This document shows positions 12,438-18,815 of a stretch of 37,253 bases of DNA, one piece after another (positions within the stretch are counted from its first letter, which is position 1; every line of letters starts with the position of its first letter). Position numbers and translations under genes: made by a program. The DNA comes from Flavobacteriaceae bacterium (GTDB lineage Bacteria; Bacteroidota; Bacteroidia; Flavobacteriales; Flavobacteriaceae): NCBI GenBank assembly GCA_017856205.1, contig JAFMFL010000008.1, positions 1 to 37,253 of the forward strand, read 5' to 3'. The notes beneath the pieces were generated by a model, which did not search any database, had not been told where the DNA came from, and saw only the letters and a list, made by a program, of their open reading frames with translations.

Positions 12438-14033
12438 ATGCTTAAACGGGTTTTTGTTGCGCTTTTGATTTGCTCTGTGTTTGTGCAATGTGCACGTCGT
12501 GGTTCACCCACCGGTGGCCCAAAAGACGAAACCCCACCCGTTATGTTACGTGCCGAACCACCTCAGCAGTCTGTTCAGTTTAAAGAAGACCGCATCCGCA
12601 TTTATTTTGATGAATATATCAAGCTAAATAAACTCAATGATCAACTTGTTGTTTCACCGCCTCTTGAGCAAACCGCTTATGTGATTTCGCCACAAAGCCA
12701 GGCGGCAAAATATGTTGAAATCGAATTTTTGGACTCCCTTGCTCAAAACACCACCTATACCTTTAATTTTGGGGAGAGTGTGGTGGACAACAACGAAGGT
12801 AATCCGTTTTCTTATTTCTATTATGTGTTTTCCACGGGTGCTACCATAGATTCCCTCAAGTTACGCGGCACCATTTCCGATGCTTTTTCCCGTACCCCCG
12901 AATCCTTTGTTTCGGTAATGCTTTTTCCCATAGATAGTACCTATACCGACTCGGTTATTTACAAAAATAAGCCGCTCTATTATACCAACACACTAGACAG
13001 TCTTACTGAGTTTTTGATGCCCAATCTCAAAGCAGGCGATTATCTTTTGGCTGCTGTAAAAGATGTATCCAAAAATTATGTTTTTGACCCTTCGGTAGAT
13101 AAAATTGATGCCATAAGCCACGTCATTACATTGCCGAACGATAGCTTATTTCAGCTATCGCTCTTCAAGGAAGATCCAGCATTTGATTTTGGCAAAGCCT
13201 ACCAAGCAGGAAAGCAACGTATAGGGTTTGGATTTAAAGGGAGTGATGCCGTTTCCATTGAACTTAAGGAAACCGTTAATGACAGTTTTGCTTCAATGGT
13301 TTCACGTGACCGTGAATCCGATACGCTCTACTATTGGTATAAAGGAATTGATGCCGATTCGCTGCGTTTTACCTTACGCCACGACACCTTGACAAAAGAG
13401 TATGCCTTTCGAGTTCGAAAAGCGGAACCCGATTCGCTACAAATTTCTTTTGAGCCAAAAGGAACGCTGCATCTTAGCGACACGCTGAAACTTATTACCA
13501 ATACTCCCATCAAAAAACTTGTACAAGACTCCATGAGTCTACGAGCAAAAGATTCGACGCAAATACCCTTTACGCTTACGCAAAAAGGCATGCATGAGCT
13601 ACATGTTTTGTTTGATATCTTTCCTAACGAAAAATACCAACTCGAGCTCCTTCCGGGTGCCGTAACAGATTTTTTTGACATTGCAAACGATAGCCTTTCA
13701 ACGTCTGTTAGCACCAAAAGCAGGGTAGATTATGGCAACCTGTCATTAAGGTTAGCCAATGTGCCTTCGTATCCTATTTTTATTGATTTGATAAATGAAA
13801 AGGAGGAAATTGTTCGGAGCAAGTATATCGAAGAAGAACGTGGGTTATATCGCTTTGCCTATCTGTTGCCAAACAAATATTATGTGCGTGTTCGAGTAGA
13901 TGAAAATGCTAATGGCAAATGGGACACAGGGAACTTTTTAGCAGGAAAAAAACCTGAAGCGGTATATCACTTTCCGCCACTTTTAGATGTGCGTGCCAAC
14001 TGGGAATTACAAGAACAATTTATTCTAGAGTAA
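12438..14033 (+). CDS. Ig-like domain lipoprotein
   Basis: Lipobox-type N-terminus (LLICSVFVQCARRGSPTGGPKDETPPVMLRAEPP) followed by a bacterial Ig-like domain (IRIYFDEYIKL...VVSPPLEQ). Confidence 0.8.
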   Translation: MLKRVFVALLICSVFVQCARRGSPTGGPKDETPPVMLRAEPPQQSVQFKEDRIRIYFDEYIKLNKLNDQLVVSPPLEQTAYVISPQSQAAKYVEIEFLDSLAQNTTYTFNFGESVVDNNEGNPFSYFYYVFSTGATIDSLKLRGTISDAFSRTPESFVSVMLFPIDSTYTDSVIYKNKPLYYTNTLDSLTEFLMPNLKAGDYLLAAVKDVSKNYVFDPSVDKIDAISHVITLPNDSLFQLSLFKEDPAFDFGKAYQAGKQRIGFGFKGSDAVSIELKETVNDSFASMVSRDRESDTLYYWYKGIDADSLRFTLRHDTLTKEYAFRVRKAEPDSLQISFEPKGTLHLSDTLKLITNTPIKKLVQDSMSLRAKDSTQIPFTLTQKGMHELHVLFDIFPNEKYQLELLPGAVTDFFDIANDSLSTSVSTKSRVDYGNLSLRLANVPSYPIFIDLINEKEEIVRSKYIEEERGLYRFAYLLPNKYYVRVRVDENANGKWDTGNFLAGKKPEAVYHFPPLLDVRANWELQEQFILE

Positions 14034-14793
14034 ACGCATCGCGATCGTCCAAAAACGGGAGCTTTTTGCGCAATTTATACAGCTCATTTTTATCAAATTC
14101 AGCTAAAGCAATAGATGTCGGTGCTTCAGCAAATGCTATTTCGTCGCCAAGGGCATTGTACGCCGCCGAAGCACCCGGATATTGCAAAAGATATGCATCT
14201 TTCCCAGTGCGATTTACCCCAACAGAAAATGCCATGTTTTCTATAGCACGCGCACGCAGCAGCGTGTTCCATGCTTGAATACGTGCGGAAGGCCAATTCG
14301 CAACGCAAATAAGCAAATCGTAGTTGTCCGTATTACGTGCAAATACCGGAAAACGCAAATCGTAGCACACTAACGGACGTATGCGAAACCCTGCGTATTC
14401 GATTAGTCTGCTGCCCTTTCCAGCGTTGTAAATCCGCGCCTCTCCCGAAGGCGTATAGGGATGCGCTTTGTCATAGGTGTCTAACTGTCCGTTTGGGTGT
14501 GCAAAAATAAATCGATTATAAAATGCATTATTTTCTTTGATGGCAAGACTTCCGCAAACGGCTACATGGTGTTGTTTTGCCATCTGTTGCATCCAAGAAA
14601 CAGAAGAACCGCTCATGGGTTCGGCAACGTCGCTGGGTGTCATCGTGAAACCTGTTGCCCACATTTCGGGCAGTACAATAAGGTTTACACCTTGAGGTAA
14701 CTCTTCTATAAGCTGCTCAAATGCCAATTGATTTGCGGCAGGGTTATGCCAATGCAAATTGGTTTGAAGTAAGGCGGTGTGTAGGATTTCCAT
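14020..14793 (-). CDS. Nitrilase-superfamily amidohydrolase (omega-amidase/YafV-like)
   Basis: LIVLPEMWATGFTM (Glu), YDKAHPY (Lys), RPLVCYDLRFPVFAR (Cys) catalytic triad context. Confidence 0.9.
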   Translation of the reverse strand: MEILHTALLQTNLHWHNPAANQLAFEQLIEELPQGVNLIVLPEMWATGFTMTPSDVAEPMSGSSVSWMQQMAKQHHVAVCGSLAIKENNAFYNRFIFAHPNGQLDTYDKAHPYTPSGEARIYNAGKGSRLIEYAGFRIRPLVCYDLRFPVFARNTDNYDLLICVANWPSARIQAWNTLLRARAIENMAFSVGVNRTGKDAYLLQYPGASAAYNALGDEIAFAEAPTSIALAEFDKNELYKLRKKLPFLDDRDAFTLE

Positions 14794-14794
14794 T

Positions 14795-14834
14795 AGATAA
14801 AACTACTGATTTAAATTAAAAAGGTAGTTTATCT
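14795..14834. other. Imperfect hairpin between sdhB and the amidohydrolase (possible terminator/attenuator)
   Basis: AGATAAaACTAC...GTAGTTTATCT, 11-bp arms with one bulge and an AT-rich loop. Confidence 0.35.
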
Positions 14835-14844
14835 TTTAACTCCG

Positions 14845-15591
14845 TTACCCCTTTACATTCGCTGAGAGATACTCACGGTTCATACGGGCAATATTTTCTA
14901 GCGAAATACCCTTAGGGCATTCCACTTCGCAAGCTCCAGTATTGGTACAATTTCCAAAGCCTTCATCGTCCATTTGCTTAACCATATTTAGCACACGATC
15001 TGTTGCCTCCACTTGTCCTTGTGGCAGAAGTGCATACTGCGATACTTTAGCCGAAACAAACAGCATGGCAGATGCGTTTTTACATGTTGCCACACATGCC
15101 CCACAGCCAATACATGCTGCTGCATCAAATGCCTTGTCGGCATCTGCTTTTTCTATAGGAATGGCGTTGGCATCTTGGGTATTTCCAGAAGTGTTTACCG
15201 AAACAAAACCCCCAGCGTGTTGAATGCGATCAAATGACGAGCGATCAACGACCAAATCTTTAATTACCGGAAATGGCTTTGCTCGAAATGGCTCAATATG
15301 AATGGTATCACCATCTTTAAATTTGCGCATGTGCAACTGGCAAGTAGTAATCAGTCGATCTGGGCCGTGAGCTTCTCCATTGATAAACATAGAGCATGCT
15401 CCACAAATACCCTCTCGACAATCATGGTCAAAAGCTACAGGGTCAATGCCTTGGTCCATCAGTTGCTCGTTAAGCACATCCATCATTTCCAAAAACGACA
15501 TATCTGGTGAAACATCGTCAAGCGAATAGGTGTGCATGCTTCCTTTTGCGGTGGCGTTTTCTTGTCGCCAAATTTTTAATGTCAGTTTCAT
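14845..15591 (-). CDS. sdhB: Succinate dehydrogenase/fumarate reductase iron-sulfur subunit
   Basis: [58 protein letters not shown]. Confidence 0.97.
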
Positions 15592-15606
15592 ATGTTACCC
15601 TATTAA

Positions 15607-15650
15607 GTTAATAGTTATTGGTTAATAGTTATCTGTTAGTTATTATTATT
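15607..15650. repeat. Left flank repeat array: GTTAATAGTTATTG-GTTAATAGTTATCT-GTTAGTTATTATTATT
   Basis: Two 14-nt near-identical units in tandem plus a degenerate third that runs into the stop and Asn codons of the four-helix-bundle gene. Confidence 0.75.
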
Positions 15651-16019
15651 CTCTGCGCTTTTAACCAAATAGTTTATATACCCATTAAGAATTTTGATGT
15701 TCTCAAAAATATCTTTTCTTATTTCATTTAACATGTTTTCAGAAATATAGCCCTCCTCATTGGCTACAATTACTTGGTCTAAAACCTCGTATAGTGAACC
15801 CCTTGAAGTTCTACAAAACTGTGCGTTTTCACGAAAGTGAAATCTGCCATAGCCTTCAGCAATGTTATGCGTTACGGATCTTACAGCGCGAACAATTTGC
15901 GAAGTAAGACCAAACTTTTCATCATTGGGAAATGTCTTTACCAACTCAGAAATTTTAATTCTTAACCGCCTAGCTTTTTTCCAACAATCCAAATCTTCAA
16001 ATGTTTTTATGTCACTCAT
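15636..16019 (-). CDS. Four helix bundle protein (23S rRNA intervening-sequence / S23 family)
   Basis: MSDIKTFEDLDCWKKARRLRIKISELVKTFPNDEKFGLTSQIVRAVRSVTHNIAEGYGR...FCRTSRGSLYEVLDQ: characteristic L.cWkka, FP..E.fgL..QirRa..Si..NiaEG.gR and .a.GSl.E pattern. Confidence 0.93.
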   Translation of the reverse strand: MSDIKTFEDLDCWKKARRLRIKISELVKTFPNDEKFGLTSQIVRAVRSVTHNIAEGYGRFHFRENAQFCRTSRGSLYEVLDQVIVANEEGYISENMLNEIRKDIFENIKILNGYINYLVKSAENNNN

Positions 16020-16029
16020 TAAAAAAACC

Positions 16030-16085
16030 ATTAACTGTTTACCTATTAACTGATAACTATTTCCTATTAACTAATAACTATTGCC
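16030..16085. repeat. Right flank repeat array: ATTAACTGTTTACC-TATTAACTGATAACTATT-TCCTATTAACTAATAACTATTGCC (inverted relative to left flank)
   Basis: Reverse complement reads AATAGTTATTAGTTAATAGGAAATAGTTATCAGTTAATAGG, matching the left-flank unit GTTAATAGTTAT. Confidence 0.75.
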
Positions 16086-16096
16086 TTTTGCCTAAT

Positions 16097-18100
16097 CTAC
16101 TTGTACGATCGCGTTTTAAGTTCAATATTTTCATAATTCAGTGCTTCCTTATGCAACTTGGCATCGCTTGGCTCGCCGTTGTATTCCCATGCCGAAACAA
16201 AAGTGAAATTAGCATCGTCACGAAGGGCTTCGCCTTCTGGTGTTTGCGATTCTTCTCTAAAGTGGCCTCCACAAGACTCGGTGCGCTCTAAAGCGTCTTT
16301 GGCAAACAATTCGCCCAACTCTAAAAAATCTGCTACACGAAGTGCTTTTGCCAGTGGCTCGTTGAACGAGTCAGCTGTTCCAGGTACAAAAACGTCTTTA
16401 TAAAACTCCTCTCGAAGCGCTTTAACTTCTTTCATGGCTTCTTTTAATCCATCTTCATTGCGAGACATCCCACATTTGTTCCAGATGATTTTACCCAATT
16501 TTCGATGGAAATAATCTACCGTTTTGGTGCCTTTGTTGTTCATAAAGGCATCTATTTGCGCTTGAACGCGCTGCTCTGCAGCTTCAAACTCTGGTGTATC
16601 TGTAGAAATAGGTCCTGTGCGAATATCATCTGCCAAATAATCGCCGATGGTATAGGGCAACACAAAATAGCCGTCTGCCAATCCTTGCATAAGCGCAGAT
16701 GCACCTAAGCGGTTGGCTCCATGATCTGAAAAATTGGCTTCGCCGATAGCAAAACAGCCGGGAATAGTGGTCATAAGATTATAATCAACCCATACGCCGC
16801 CCATGGTATAATGCACTGCTGGATAAATCATCATCGGAGTTTCGTATGGATTCTGATCTACGATTTTCTCGTACATCTGAAACAAGTTTCCATACTTTGC
16901 CTTTATAATTTCCTTCCCCAATTTTTGAACCAGTGCGGTATCATTTTCATCCAATCCCTTTACATGCGCTTTTTCTTTTCCGTAACGAATAATGGCATCC
17001 GCAAAATCGAGGAAAACTGCCTCGCCGGTTTTGTTTACGCCGTAGCCTTCATCGCAGCGTTCTTTGGCAGCACGCGATGCCACATCTCTTGGCACAAGGT
17101 TACCAAAGGCAGGGTAGCGACGCTCCAAGTAATAGTCGCGATCTTCCTCTGCCAAATTGGTGGGTTTAAGTCGTCCTTCACGAATGGCTTCTGCGTCTTC
17201 CTTCTTCTTGGGAACCCAAATGCGTCCATCGTTTCGGAGCGACTCCGACATTAAAGTTAATTTTGATTGATGATCGCCTGAAACGGGAATACACGTTGGG
17301 TGAATTTGTGTAAAGCATGGATTGGCAAAATATGCCCCTTGCTTATGTATTTTCCAAGCTGCCGTTACGTTGCTTCCCATAGCATTGGTGGACAAATAGA
17401 ATAAATTTCCATATCCGCCTGAGGCAATAACTACGGCATGTGCTGCATGGCGTTCAATTTCGCCAGTAACCAAATTTCTTGTAATAATCCCTCTTGCTTT
17501 GCCGTCCACTTTTACCAAATCTAGCATTTCGTGACGGTTATACATTTTGATTTTACCACGCCCTATTTGACGGTTCATAGCAGAGTACGCACCCAATAAC
17601 AACTGCTGTCCGGTTTGGCCTTTAGCATAAAATGTTCTGGACACAAGTACACCCCCAAACGAACGGTTATCCAAAAGTCCGCCGTAATCACGAGCAAAGG
17701 GAACTCCCTGTGCGACACATTGGTCAATGATGTTAGCAGAAACCTCTGCCAAACGATATACATTTGCTTCGCGAGCACGGTAATCGCCGCCTTTTACGGT
17801 ATCATAAAACAAGCGATAGGTGGAATCGCCATCTCCTTGATAATTTTTCGCTGCATTAATTCCTCCTTGTGCAGCAATGGAGTGCGCACGTCTGGGAGAG
17901 TCTTGGAAACAAAATGCTTTTACGTTATAGCCCAATTCGGCTAGTGTAGCTGCGGCAGAACCTCCCGCAAGCCCCGTACCCACTACAATTACGTCAATCA
18001 AACGTTTGTTTGCAGGGCTTACAAGGTCAATATTGTTTTTATGGTTGGTCCACTTTTCGGCAATTGGACCTTGGGGAATTTTAGCGTCTAGTGTTGCCAT
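16097..18100 (-). CDS. sdhA: Succinate dehydrogenase/fumarate reductase flavoprotein subunit
   Basis: [85 protein letters not shown]. Confidence 0.97.
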
Positions 18101-18102
18101 AT

Positions 18103-18759
18103 TTAGTGATTTAAAAAGTGAAAAATAGCGATAAAAGCATACCCTACAGGAATACCAATGGCATACAATTTTCCAAACGATTTTACAGCAGGAGTATATT
18201 TGTTATTAAAGCCCATAGATTGAAATGCTGAGGAAAAACCATGTAATAGATGCAACGCCAAAAAGAAGAATGAAATAACATACAACACCACACGTGTTAG
18301 GTCTTCAAATTTGTGCACCAACTCTTCGTAATAACGGGTTGGATCTTCAGGTAATACTTCGATGTATTTGTAATTCATTTCGGGTACCCAAAAATCATAA
18401 AAATGTAAGGCCAAAAATGCCAATACCGTGGCGCCAGAAATCAGCATGTTTCGCGAAACCCAACTTGCATTAGCGCTTCCTTTGTACACGGCATAGCGTG
18501 TACCCCGAGCGCGTTTGTTTTGAATATCAAGGACAAACCCCATCACAAAGTGAAAAATTACTCCAAAGATGAGTATGGGCTGGAGTAAAAACTGCACTAT
18601 GGGGTTAGTACCCATAAAGTGCGAAAACTGGTTGAAAATAGCTTCGCTAAAAACAGATGTTATGTTGATGACAAAATGTTGCAGCAAAAAGATCATTAAG
18701 AAAATACCAGACAGTGCCATGGCTACTTTTCTGAGGATGGTTGAAGATAAGGTGACTCC
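18103..18759 (-). CDS. sdhC: Succinate dehydrogenase cytochrome b subunit
   Basis: About 218 aa with 5 TM segments ([29 protein letters not shown]...[16 protein letters not shown]); directly upstream of sdhA. Confidence 0.93.
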
Positions 18760-18783
18760 CATAGTTTTGGCTTTTGTTGGGTA

Positions 18784-18815
18784 CAAAATTAGGTGCTGAA
18801 CGCCTGAACGCCAAA
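18784..18815 (-). promoter_or_regulatory. Bacteroidota promoter for sdhC: TTTG-N20-TAATTTTG
   Basis: Minus strand: -33-like TTTG (18815-18812), 20-nt spacer, -7 TAATTTTG (18791-18784), 24 nt upstream of the start. Confidence 0.65.

Follow-up and report, generated by a model that had tools for sequence, protein, structure and literature searches.

A four-helix-bundle S23 gene bracketed by inverted heptamer arrays in the sdh operon of Flavobacteriaceae, a probable laterally exchanged unit

Introduction

The 23S rRNA intervening sequences (IVSs) that encode S23 proteins have been described as selfish, horizontally acquired elements, which are bordered by a stem and excised by RNase III (PMC4990558). 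Other places in which IVP genes occur are cas loci (PMC3936711) and CPR rRNA inserts (PMC11270868). Intergenic TAACTGA heptamers of Bacteroidetes, Cyanobacteria and Beggiatoaceae often lie beside start codons; they have been described as sets of direct repeats with no S23 or other protein partner, and transfer is suspected, by an unknown mechanism (MacGregor 2015, PMC4679880).

In the literature that we searched, no paper linking orphan S23 genes, rRNA intervening sequences and heptamer repeats was found. To our knowledge, S23 genes have no settled function. MITEs and transposons with subterminal motif arrays carry a short motif at either end, in arrays that are inverted and face inward. Here we analyse an S23 gene with heptamer arrays between sdhA and sdhB of a marine Flavobacteriaceae bacterium, in a window (the whole stretch of DNA under study) of 37,253 nt.

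Results

The window comprises positions 1-37,253 of the + strand of contig JAFMFL010000008.1 (GCA_017856205.1), and its genome, G000, is a 1.41-Mb draft that is 82.6% complete. The sdh operon lies on the − strand, with sdhC as its first gene (18103..18786; read from its ORF, genus relatives having sdhC too), followed by sdhA (16097..18100; ORF and synteny in relatives) and sdhB (14845..15591; ORF and junctions in relatives). Between the latter two lies an insert at 15592..16096 (− strand), where the sister genome G136 has 2 nt (TAG CT ATG). The S23 gene of the insert is located at 15636..16019 on the − strand. Its ORF spans 15636-16031 and encodes 131 aa if read from 16031; judged by conservation, the start is more likely M5 at 16019, giving 127 aa. 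The ORF matches Pfam 23S_rRNA_IVP (PF05635; E 5.7e-33, 113.7 bits versus a cut-off of 33.8) and TIGR02436 (E 1.6e-31, 108.8 bits versus a cut-off of 24). An AlphaFold model made from 25 locus proteins displays four helices with a pLDDT of 95, and Foldseek searches with this model retrieve the S23 protein 2gsc (TM 0.86), 2rld and, more weakly, Avd (4dwl, TM 0.74; 8ube, TM 0.73), while 2gsc is the sole match in a phmmer search of the PDB. With both profiles above cut-off and a matching fold, the ORF is a member of the S23 / 23S_rRNA_IVP family. No known structured RNA was found by Rfam at the locus (14000-18800).

The gene is bracketed by arrays of 7-bp units. Downstream, overlapping the stop codon, positions 15601..15638 read GTTAATA-GTTATTG-GTTAATA-GTTATCT-GTTA on the + strand, i.e., TAAC-type in the gene sense. 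Upstream, an array that is inverted relative to the downstream one occupies 16026..16086 (− strand), with the sense sequence TAGTTATTAGTTAATAGGAAATAGTTATCAGTTAATAGGTAAACAGTTA. Complementarity between the two arms (15606-15638 and 16047-16079) is 82% across 33 nt, and TRF detects periods of 7, 14 and 21 bp in 15601-15648 and in 16026-16086. When the 37-kb window is scanned from end to end at lag 7/14, the arms rank first and second with scores of 0.66 and 0.64, compared with a background mean of 0.249 (sd 0.053) and 0.48 for the next best stretch, and are therefore far beyond chance. The exact 12-mer repeat alone is weak evidence, two matches being reached in 6 of 100 shuffles. A preliminary description of this DNA had named a four-helix-bundle gene of the 23S-IVS/S23 type between sdhA and sdhB, structurally akin to Avd, with inverted repeat arrays at both edges and a left array that supplies the stop codon and the C-terminal Asn run. 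All of these points are borne out: PF05635, TIGR02436 and the 2gsc fold match identify the gene; a structural match to Avd is detected (4dwl), at lower similarity than to 2gsc; the complementary arms are the strongest 7-bp-periodic stretches in the window; and the array overlaps the stop and last Asn codons, precisely where the S23 C-termini of relatives vary (AENKNG, AEKKD).

The sdhA|sdhB junction was readable in 15 same-genus genomes. Six junctions are empty, with a stop codon, 2 nt and ATG (5 nt including the stop; G136, G124, G131, G128, G126 and G132), so the gene and its flanks are not shared by all relatives, among which an empty site had been proposed as the thing to look for. Four carry the window-type S23, type I (G000, G122, G133 and, with its reading frame broken, G129), four carry a type II S23 that is 37% identical to type I (G121, G127, G130 and G125), and one, G134, retains a gene-less remnant. 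Every S23 gene detected in the genus lies at this junction, with one copy per genome, and S23 is absent from 9 of the 17 genus genomes, which are drafts. In other genera the junction is mostly short; a few carry S23 (G013, G142, G070 and G097), that of G013 being broken, two further genera show type II scars (G020 and G177), and gene-less inverted arrays occur at the junction in some others. In several clean empty junctions GCT directly precedes the sdhB start, which is also the case in uninvaded genera, and scars leave debris. On this sequence pattern, the clean junctions do not look like deletions; they seem never to have been invaded, or to have been restored when an uninvaded allele recombined with them. 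No target-site duplication was evident by eye between filled and empty junctions, where the ends are blurred by degenerate repeats. Three Flavobacteriaceae genera (among L277, L279, L280 and L282) have, in the sdhA-sdhB gap, an additional ORF of ~110-120 aa that contains hydrophobic segments, without S23; in G097 (L277), the gene order is sdhA, this ORF, S23 and sdhB.

The sdhCAB and rpoB trees agree in making the filled G000 and the empty G136 sisters (100% support in each), and both host trees interleave the junction states, i.e., empty, type I, type II and scar. Third-codon identity is higher for S23 than for sdhA in the genome pairs G122/G133 (0.99 versus 0.80, p 1.5e-10), G000/G122 (0.76 versus 0.51, p 9e-8) and G121/G127 (0.93 versus 0.75, p 1e-5); the cassette differs less from species to species than sdhA/sdhB do, third codon positions included, which argues for lateral exchange. 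In G121/G127, a conversion tract extends ~95 nt into sdhB, the mark of homologous recombination. In G122/G133, the first differences outside the insert occur 11 nt away in sdhA and 8 nt away in sdhB, and sdhA divergence is also low across the last 90 nt; this pair may have exchanged the cassette by recombination too, the sharp edges resting on few differences near the insert. When genera are compared, S23 distances correlate with those of sdhA (r 0.80; r 0.63 for sdhA pairs <95%), indicating long-range site faithfulness and largely co-inheritance, and the sdh-site S23 is kept through many Flavobacterium species. S23 changes concentrate at third codon positions, and the protein is thus under purifying selection. 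A single clade for all sdh-site S23s is rejected by AU tests (p 4.5e-53 overall, p 0.0023 within the type I group), with groups that were named after the tree was seen. Judged by these comparisons, the cassette appears faithful to its site in the long term, with exchange, replacement and loss on a shorter scale, and the S23 gene together with its arrays is very probably a laterally exchanged unit.

A breadth scan of the window S23's group against genomes of 84,980 species yielded 80 loci. About 43 lie at sdhA|sdhB, in Flavobacteriaceae, Cyclobacteriaceae-type Bacteroidota and Ignavibacteria, and others at nuoF|nuoG, V-ATPase, hut-like and mur-like junctions, named from sequence and not from annotation; the non-sdh loci include Verrucomicrobia, Chloroflexi and Desulfobacterales records. 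Nearly all testable S23 loci (98/105) are co-directional with both neighbours. S23 genes are present in 90 of 121 sampled Flavobacteriaceae genomes, the highest number in one genome being 17. Where a genome has several copies, these share a mean identity of 37% and a maximum of 65%, ten weak matches being unplaced in this comparison. Ten Flavobacteriaceae genomes have a recurrent second S23 site with its own heptamers just upstream of a thiolase-like (acetyl-CoA acyltransferase) gene (L011, L012, L019, L026, L027, L029, L030 and L032-L034). Neither recent within-genome S23 copies nor transposition bursts were found in any genome examined, and G000 yielded no second or repeat-flanked S23 copy. 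As within-genome copies are old and divergent and G000 has a single one, the unit is not an amplifying MITE-like element. Two candidate helpers were rejected: reverse transcriptase (RVT_1) is found in 0 of 17 genus genomes, which are incomplete drafts, and a Y1 transposase in only 2 of 17, neither with type I. Phage or viral carriage was likewise rejected, with no match in phages or viral contigs. Plasmid matches are distant, with <40% identity among the matches listed, and come from cyanobacteria and Riemerella. S23 genes on a Nostoc plasmid (L268) and a Riemerella plasmid (L270) have inverted heptamer-like flanks, with CAGGAGT-like and TTCAAGG-like units.

The earlier proposal of a mobile or passively mobilised cassette thus stands in part. 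The polymorphic site, the interleaved states, the differing histories of cassette and sdh genes and the recurrence of the same unit at many junctions support it; however, copies are old, and the further four-helix-bundle genes with the same arrays that were to be looked for in the host genome did not turn up, G000 having one S23.

These data also bear on the leading alternative, in which S23 is a resident host gene for an operon-tuning or RNA-binding protein of use to the host, inherited vertically at junctions that stay fixed, often lost and now and then restored by ordinary homologous recombination through sdhA/sdhB, with the arrays as operator or mRNA sites. Such a gene would fit the correlated S23-sdhA distances, the conserved presence across many Flavobacterium species, the purifying selection seen in third-codon changes, the recombination tract that reaches sdhB and the single copy per genome in the genus. 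Yet it is missing from 9/17 genus genomes (drafts), is replaced at the same site by a 37% identical type and is broken in G129 and G013, and one protein group recurs in unrelated operons (sdh, nuo, V-ATPase, mur and hut). We consider a resident gene unlikely.

The flanking arrays were compared across S23 loci. In 35 loci, the flanks have lag-7 identities of 0.44 and 0.42 versus ~0.27-0.36 at neighbouring lags, and upstream and downstream arms match at 17.1 within a locus versus 10.4 between loci. Type I relatives, from several phyla and many operons, share one common motif, GTTAWNN, facing inward. Of the 4-mers that recur at +7, GTTA ranks first in all type I groups and in none of the other clades, and among 54 dereplicated loci, upstream arms contain 200 GTTA versus 27 TAAC, and downstream arms 186 TAAC versus 35 GTTA. 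Type II, at the same sdh site in the same genus, has TAGGCAA/TAGTGAA-like units, and the MetH-site S23 clade has GTTG-based units. In different-site pairs, shared arm 6-mers climb with protein identity from 9.7 to 19.6 (0/1000 permutations). Since type I members share GTTAWNN across sites whereas type II differs at the same site, the motif follows protein lineage, not site. As compared at the level of flanking sequence, these loci show that the array motif belongs to the S23 protein lineage, which is the new point here. The GTTAWNN core positions are conserved and the two spacer bases vary, arguing for constraint on the motif; the motif-protein link could also have arisen because the unit descends as a whole, and not through binding.

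Four-unit GTTAWNN arrays were scanned for in 40 Flavobacteriales, and 22 array sites were examined. S23 is near the array at two of them, i.e., the window and a partial S23 in G155; ~20 sites have no S23 within ~1.5 kb, and most gene-less arrays are unpaired, with no inverted partner within 700 nt. Gene-less arrays are thus common in some Flavobacteriales, and an array can exist without S23. Outside the sdh site, GTTAWNN counts in the window's genus do not exceed a reversed-pattern control. The MITE-like solo copies that had been suggested are reduced accordingly: in the genus a few arrays look real (G000 contigs C96 and C63; G125 contigs C146 and C161) and totals show no excess over the control, while most arrays elsewhere are unpaired, with a putative relation to S23. 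On C96 (L199/L260), gene-less GTTAWNN arrays flank a trmD-like gene on both sides; on C63 (L103:1774), an array directly follows the stop codon of a dehydrogenase-like gene, beside a palindromic GTCAGTTCGAGTGA...TATCGAGAAC repeat; C146 and C161 (L261 and L262) carry paired inverted heptamer arrays with no gene between, possible deletion derivatives. G171, G190, G152 and G153 (L297-L335) have long, uniform GTTATGA or GTTATCA arrays of <=~12 units with no S23 nearby, some of which begin at a gene's stop codon.

Such arrays could be taken as landing pads, i.e., independent simple repeats between genes, often at stop codons, in which S23 merely settles. The ~20 Flavobacteriales sites without S23, together with the TAACTGA (= GTTATCA) arrays known without any S23 link (PMC4679880), agree with this. 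However, landing pads predict neither an inverted, inward-facing pair around the gene, nor a motif class that follows protein lineage across phyla, nor the presence of two array types at a single site within a genus; moreover, the gene-less arrays mostly lack an inverted partner, and the clean 2-nt gaps in the genus point to empty sites without prior arrays. We regard landing pads as very unlikely.

Whether the arms act as RNA or DNA was judged from their mismatches and pairing. Across 86 loci, G-U mismatches are fewer than A-C mismatches (57 versus 90, p 0.008), the sense arm duplex is no stronger than the antisense one, and cross-arm pairing is equal on both strands; selection on the arms as an RNA stem is thereby not supported. 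The predicted fold of the sense transcript pairs the arms, with 34 cross-arm pairs and a fold z of -2.4. The missing G-U excess, the equal pairing of both strands and an asymmetric motif whose inverted copies are one and the same site only as double-stranded DNA point to arrays that may act as double-stranded DNA sites. It is very unlikely that the insert is an mRNA intervening sequence whose arms pair in the sdh transcript and whose stem is cut by RNase III to excise the S23 segment as in 23S rRNA: the predicted sense fold and the known IVSs, with the same gene, size class, terminal inverted repeats and RNase III cleavage (PMC4990558), favour it, yet the G-U deficit, the sense duplex being no stronger and the equal pairing on both strands oppose it, and excising the segment would split the sdhA-sdhB message instead of leaving it intact.

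Discussion

On balance, we lean towards reading the insert as a site-faithful single-gene element that is laterally exchanged, recognises its own arrays and is the operon counterpart of the S23-encoding 23S rRNA intervening sequences. The element consists of the S23 gene and an inward-facing GTTAWNN heptamer array at each end; it is gained and passes between species, other S23 types take its place, and deletions that leave scars remove it. It occupies gaps between co-directional genes, where it would do little harm. S23 would bind its own arrays as double-stranded DNA and hold both ends, and spread between genomes would proceed via recombination at the homologous junction, perhaps aided by end-binding, with cutting and joining presumably performed by host enzymes. 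The lack of a nuclease counts against this reading. Regarding its parts, recognition of its own end arrays by the S23 protein, as DNA, seems somewhat probable, and active promotion of its own spread is doubtful. A broader proposal, that S23 proteins are sequence-specific DNA binders with a heptamer code per lineage, driving nuclease-free homing into operon junctions via host repair, is distinctly speculative and rather improbable; if true, homing by a heptamer-reading S23 would explain orphan S23 genes, 23S rRNA IVSs and TAACTGA-type arrays. The tie between protein lineage and array motif offers a direct, cheap test of what S23 proteins bind, and connects three loose ends, i.e., orphan S23 genes, rRNA intervening sequences and intergenic heptamer repeats.

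In comparison with known systems, the locus would be an operon-borne variant that joins ribosomal S23 IVSs and TAACTGA-type heptamers. It resembles the 23S rRNA IVSs of Leptospira and Coxiella in protein family, in pairable terminal inverted repeats, in a size close to the ~430-520 nt of those IVSs, in scattered presence and in signs of horizontal transfer (PMC4990558). Unlike these, the window insert lies between the protein genes sdhA and sdhB and not in rRNA, its arms consist of arrays in which a lineage-specific motif recurs every 7 bp in degenerate form instead of one near-perfect stem, and the conservation of operon-borne arms has no RNA-pairing signature. TAACTGA reads GTTATCA on the other strand and is thus a member of GTTAWNN; the window arrays are degenerate and mixed, and, unlike TAACTGA repeats, inverted pairs here bracket an S23 gene. 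Avd, the DGR accessory protein, has the same four-helix-bundle fold, yet identity is ~7% and none of the 17 genus genomes has a reverse transcriptase. Finally, the S23 unit shares inward-facing inverted arrays at both ends with MITEs and transposons of the subterminal-array kind, but differs from them in having neither a transposase nor fresh within-genome copies.
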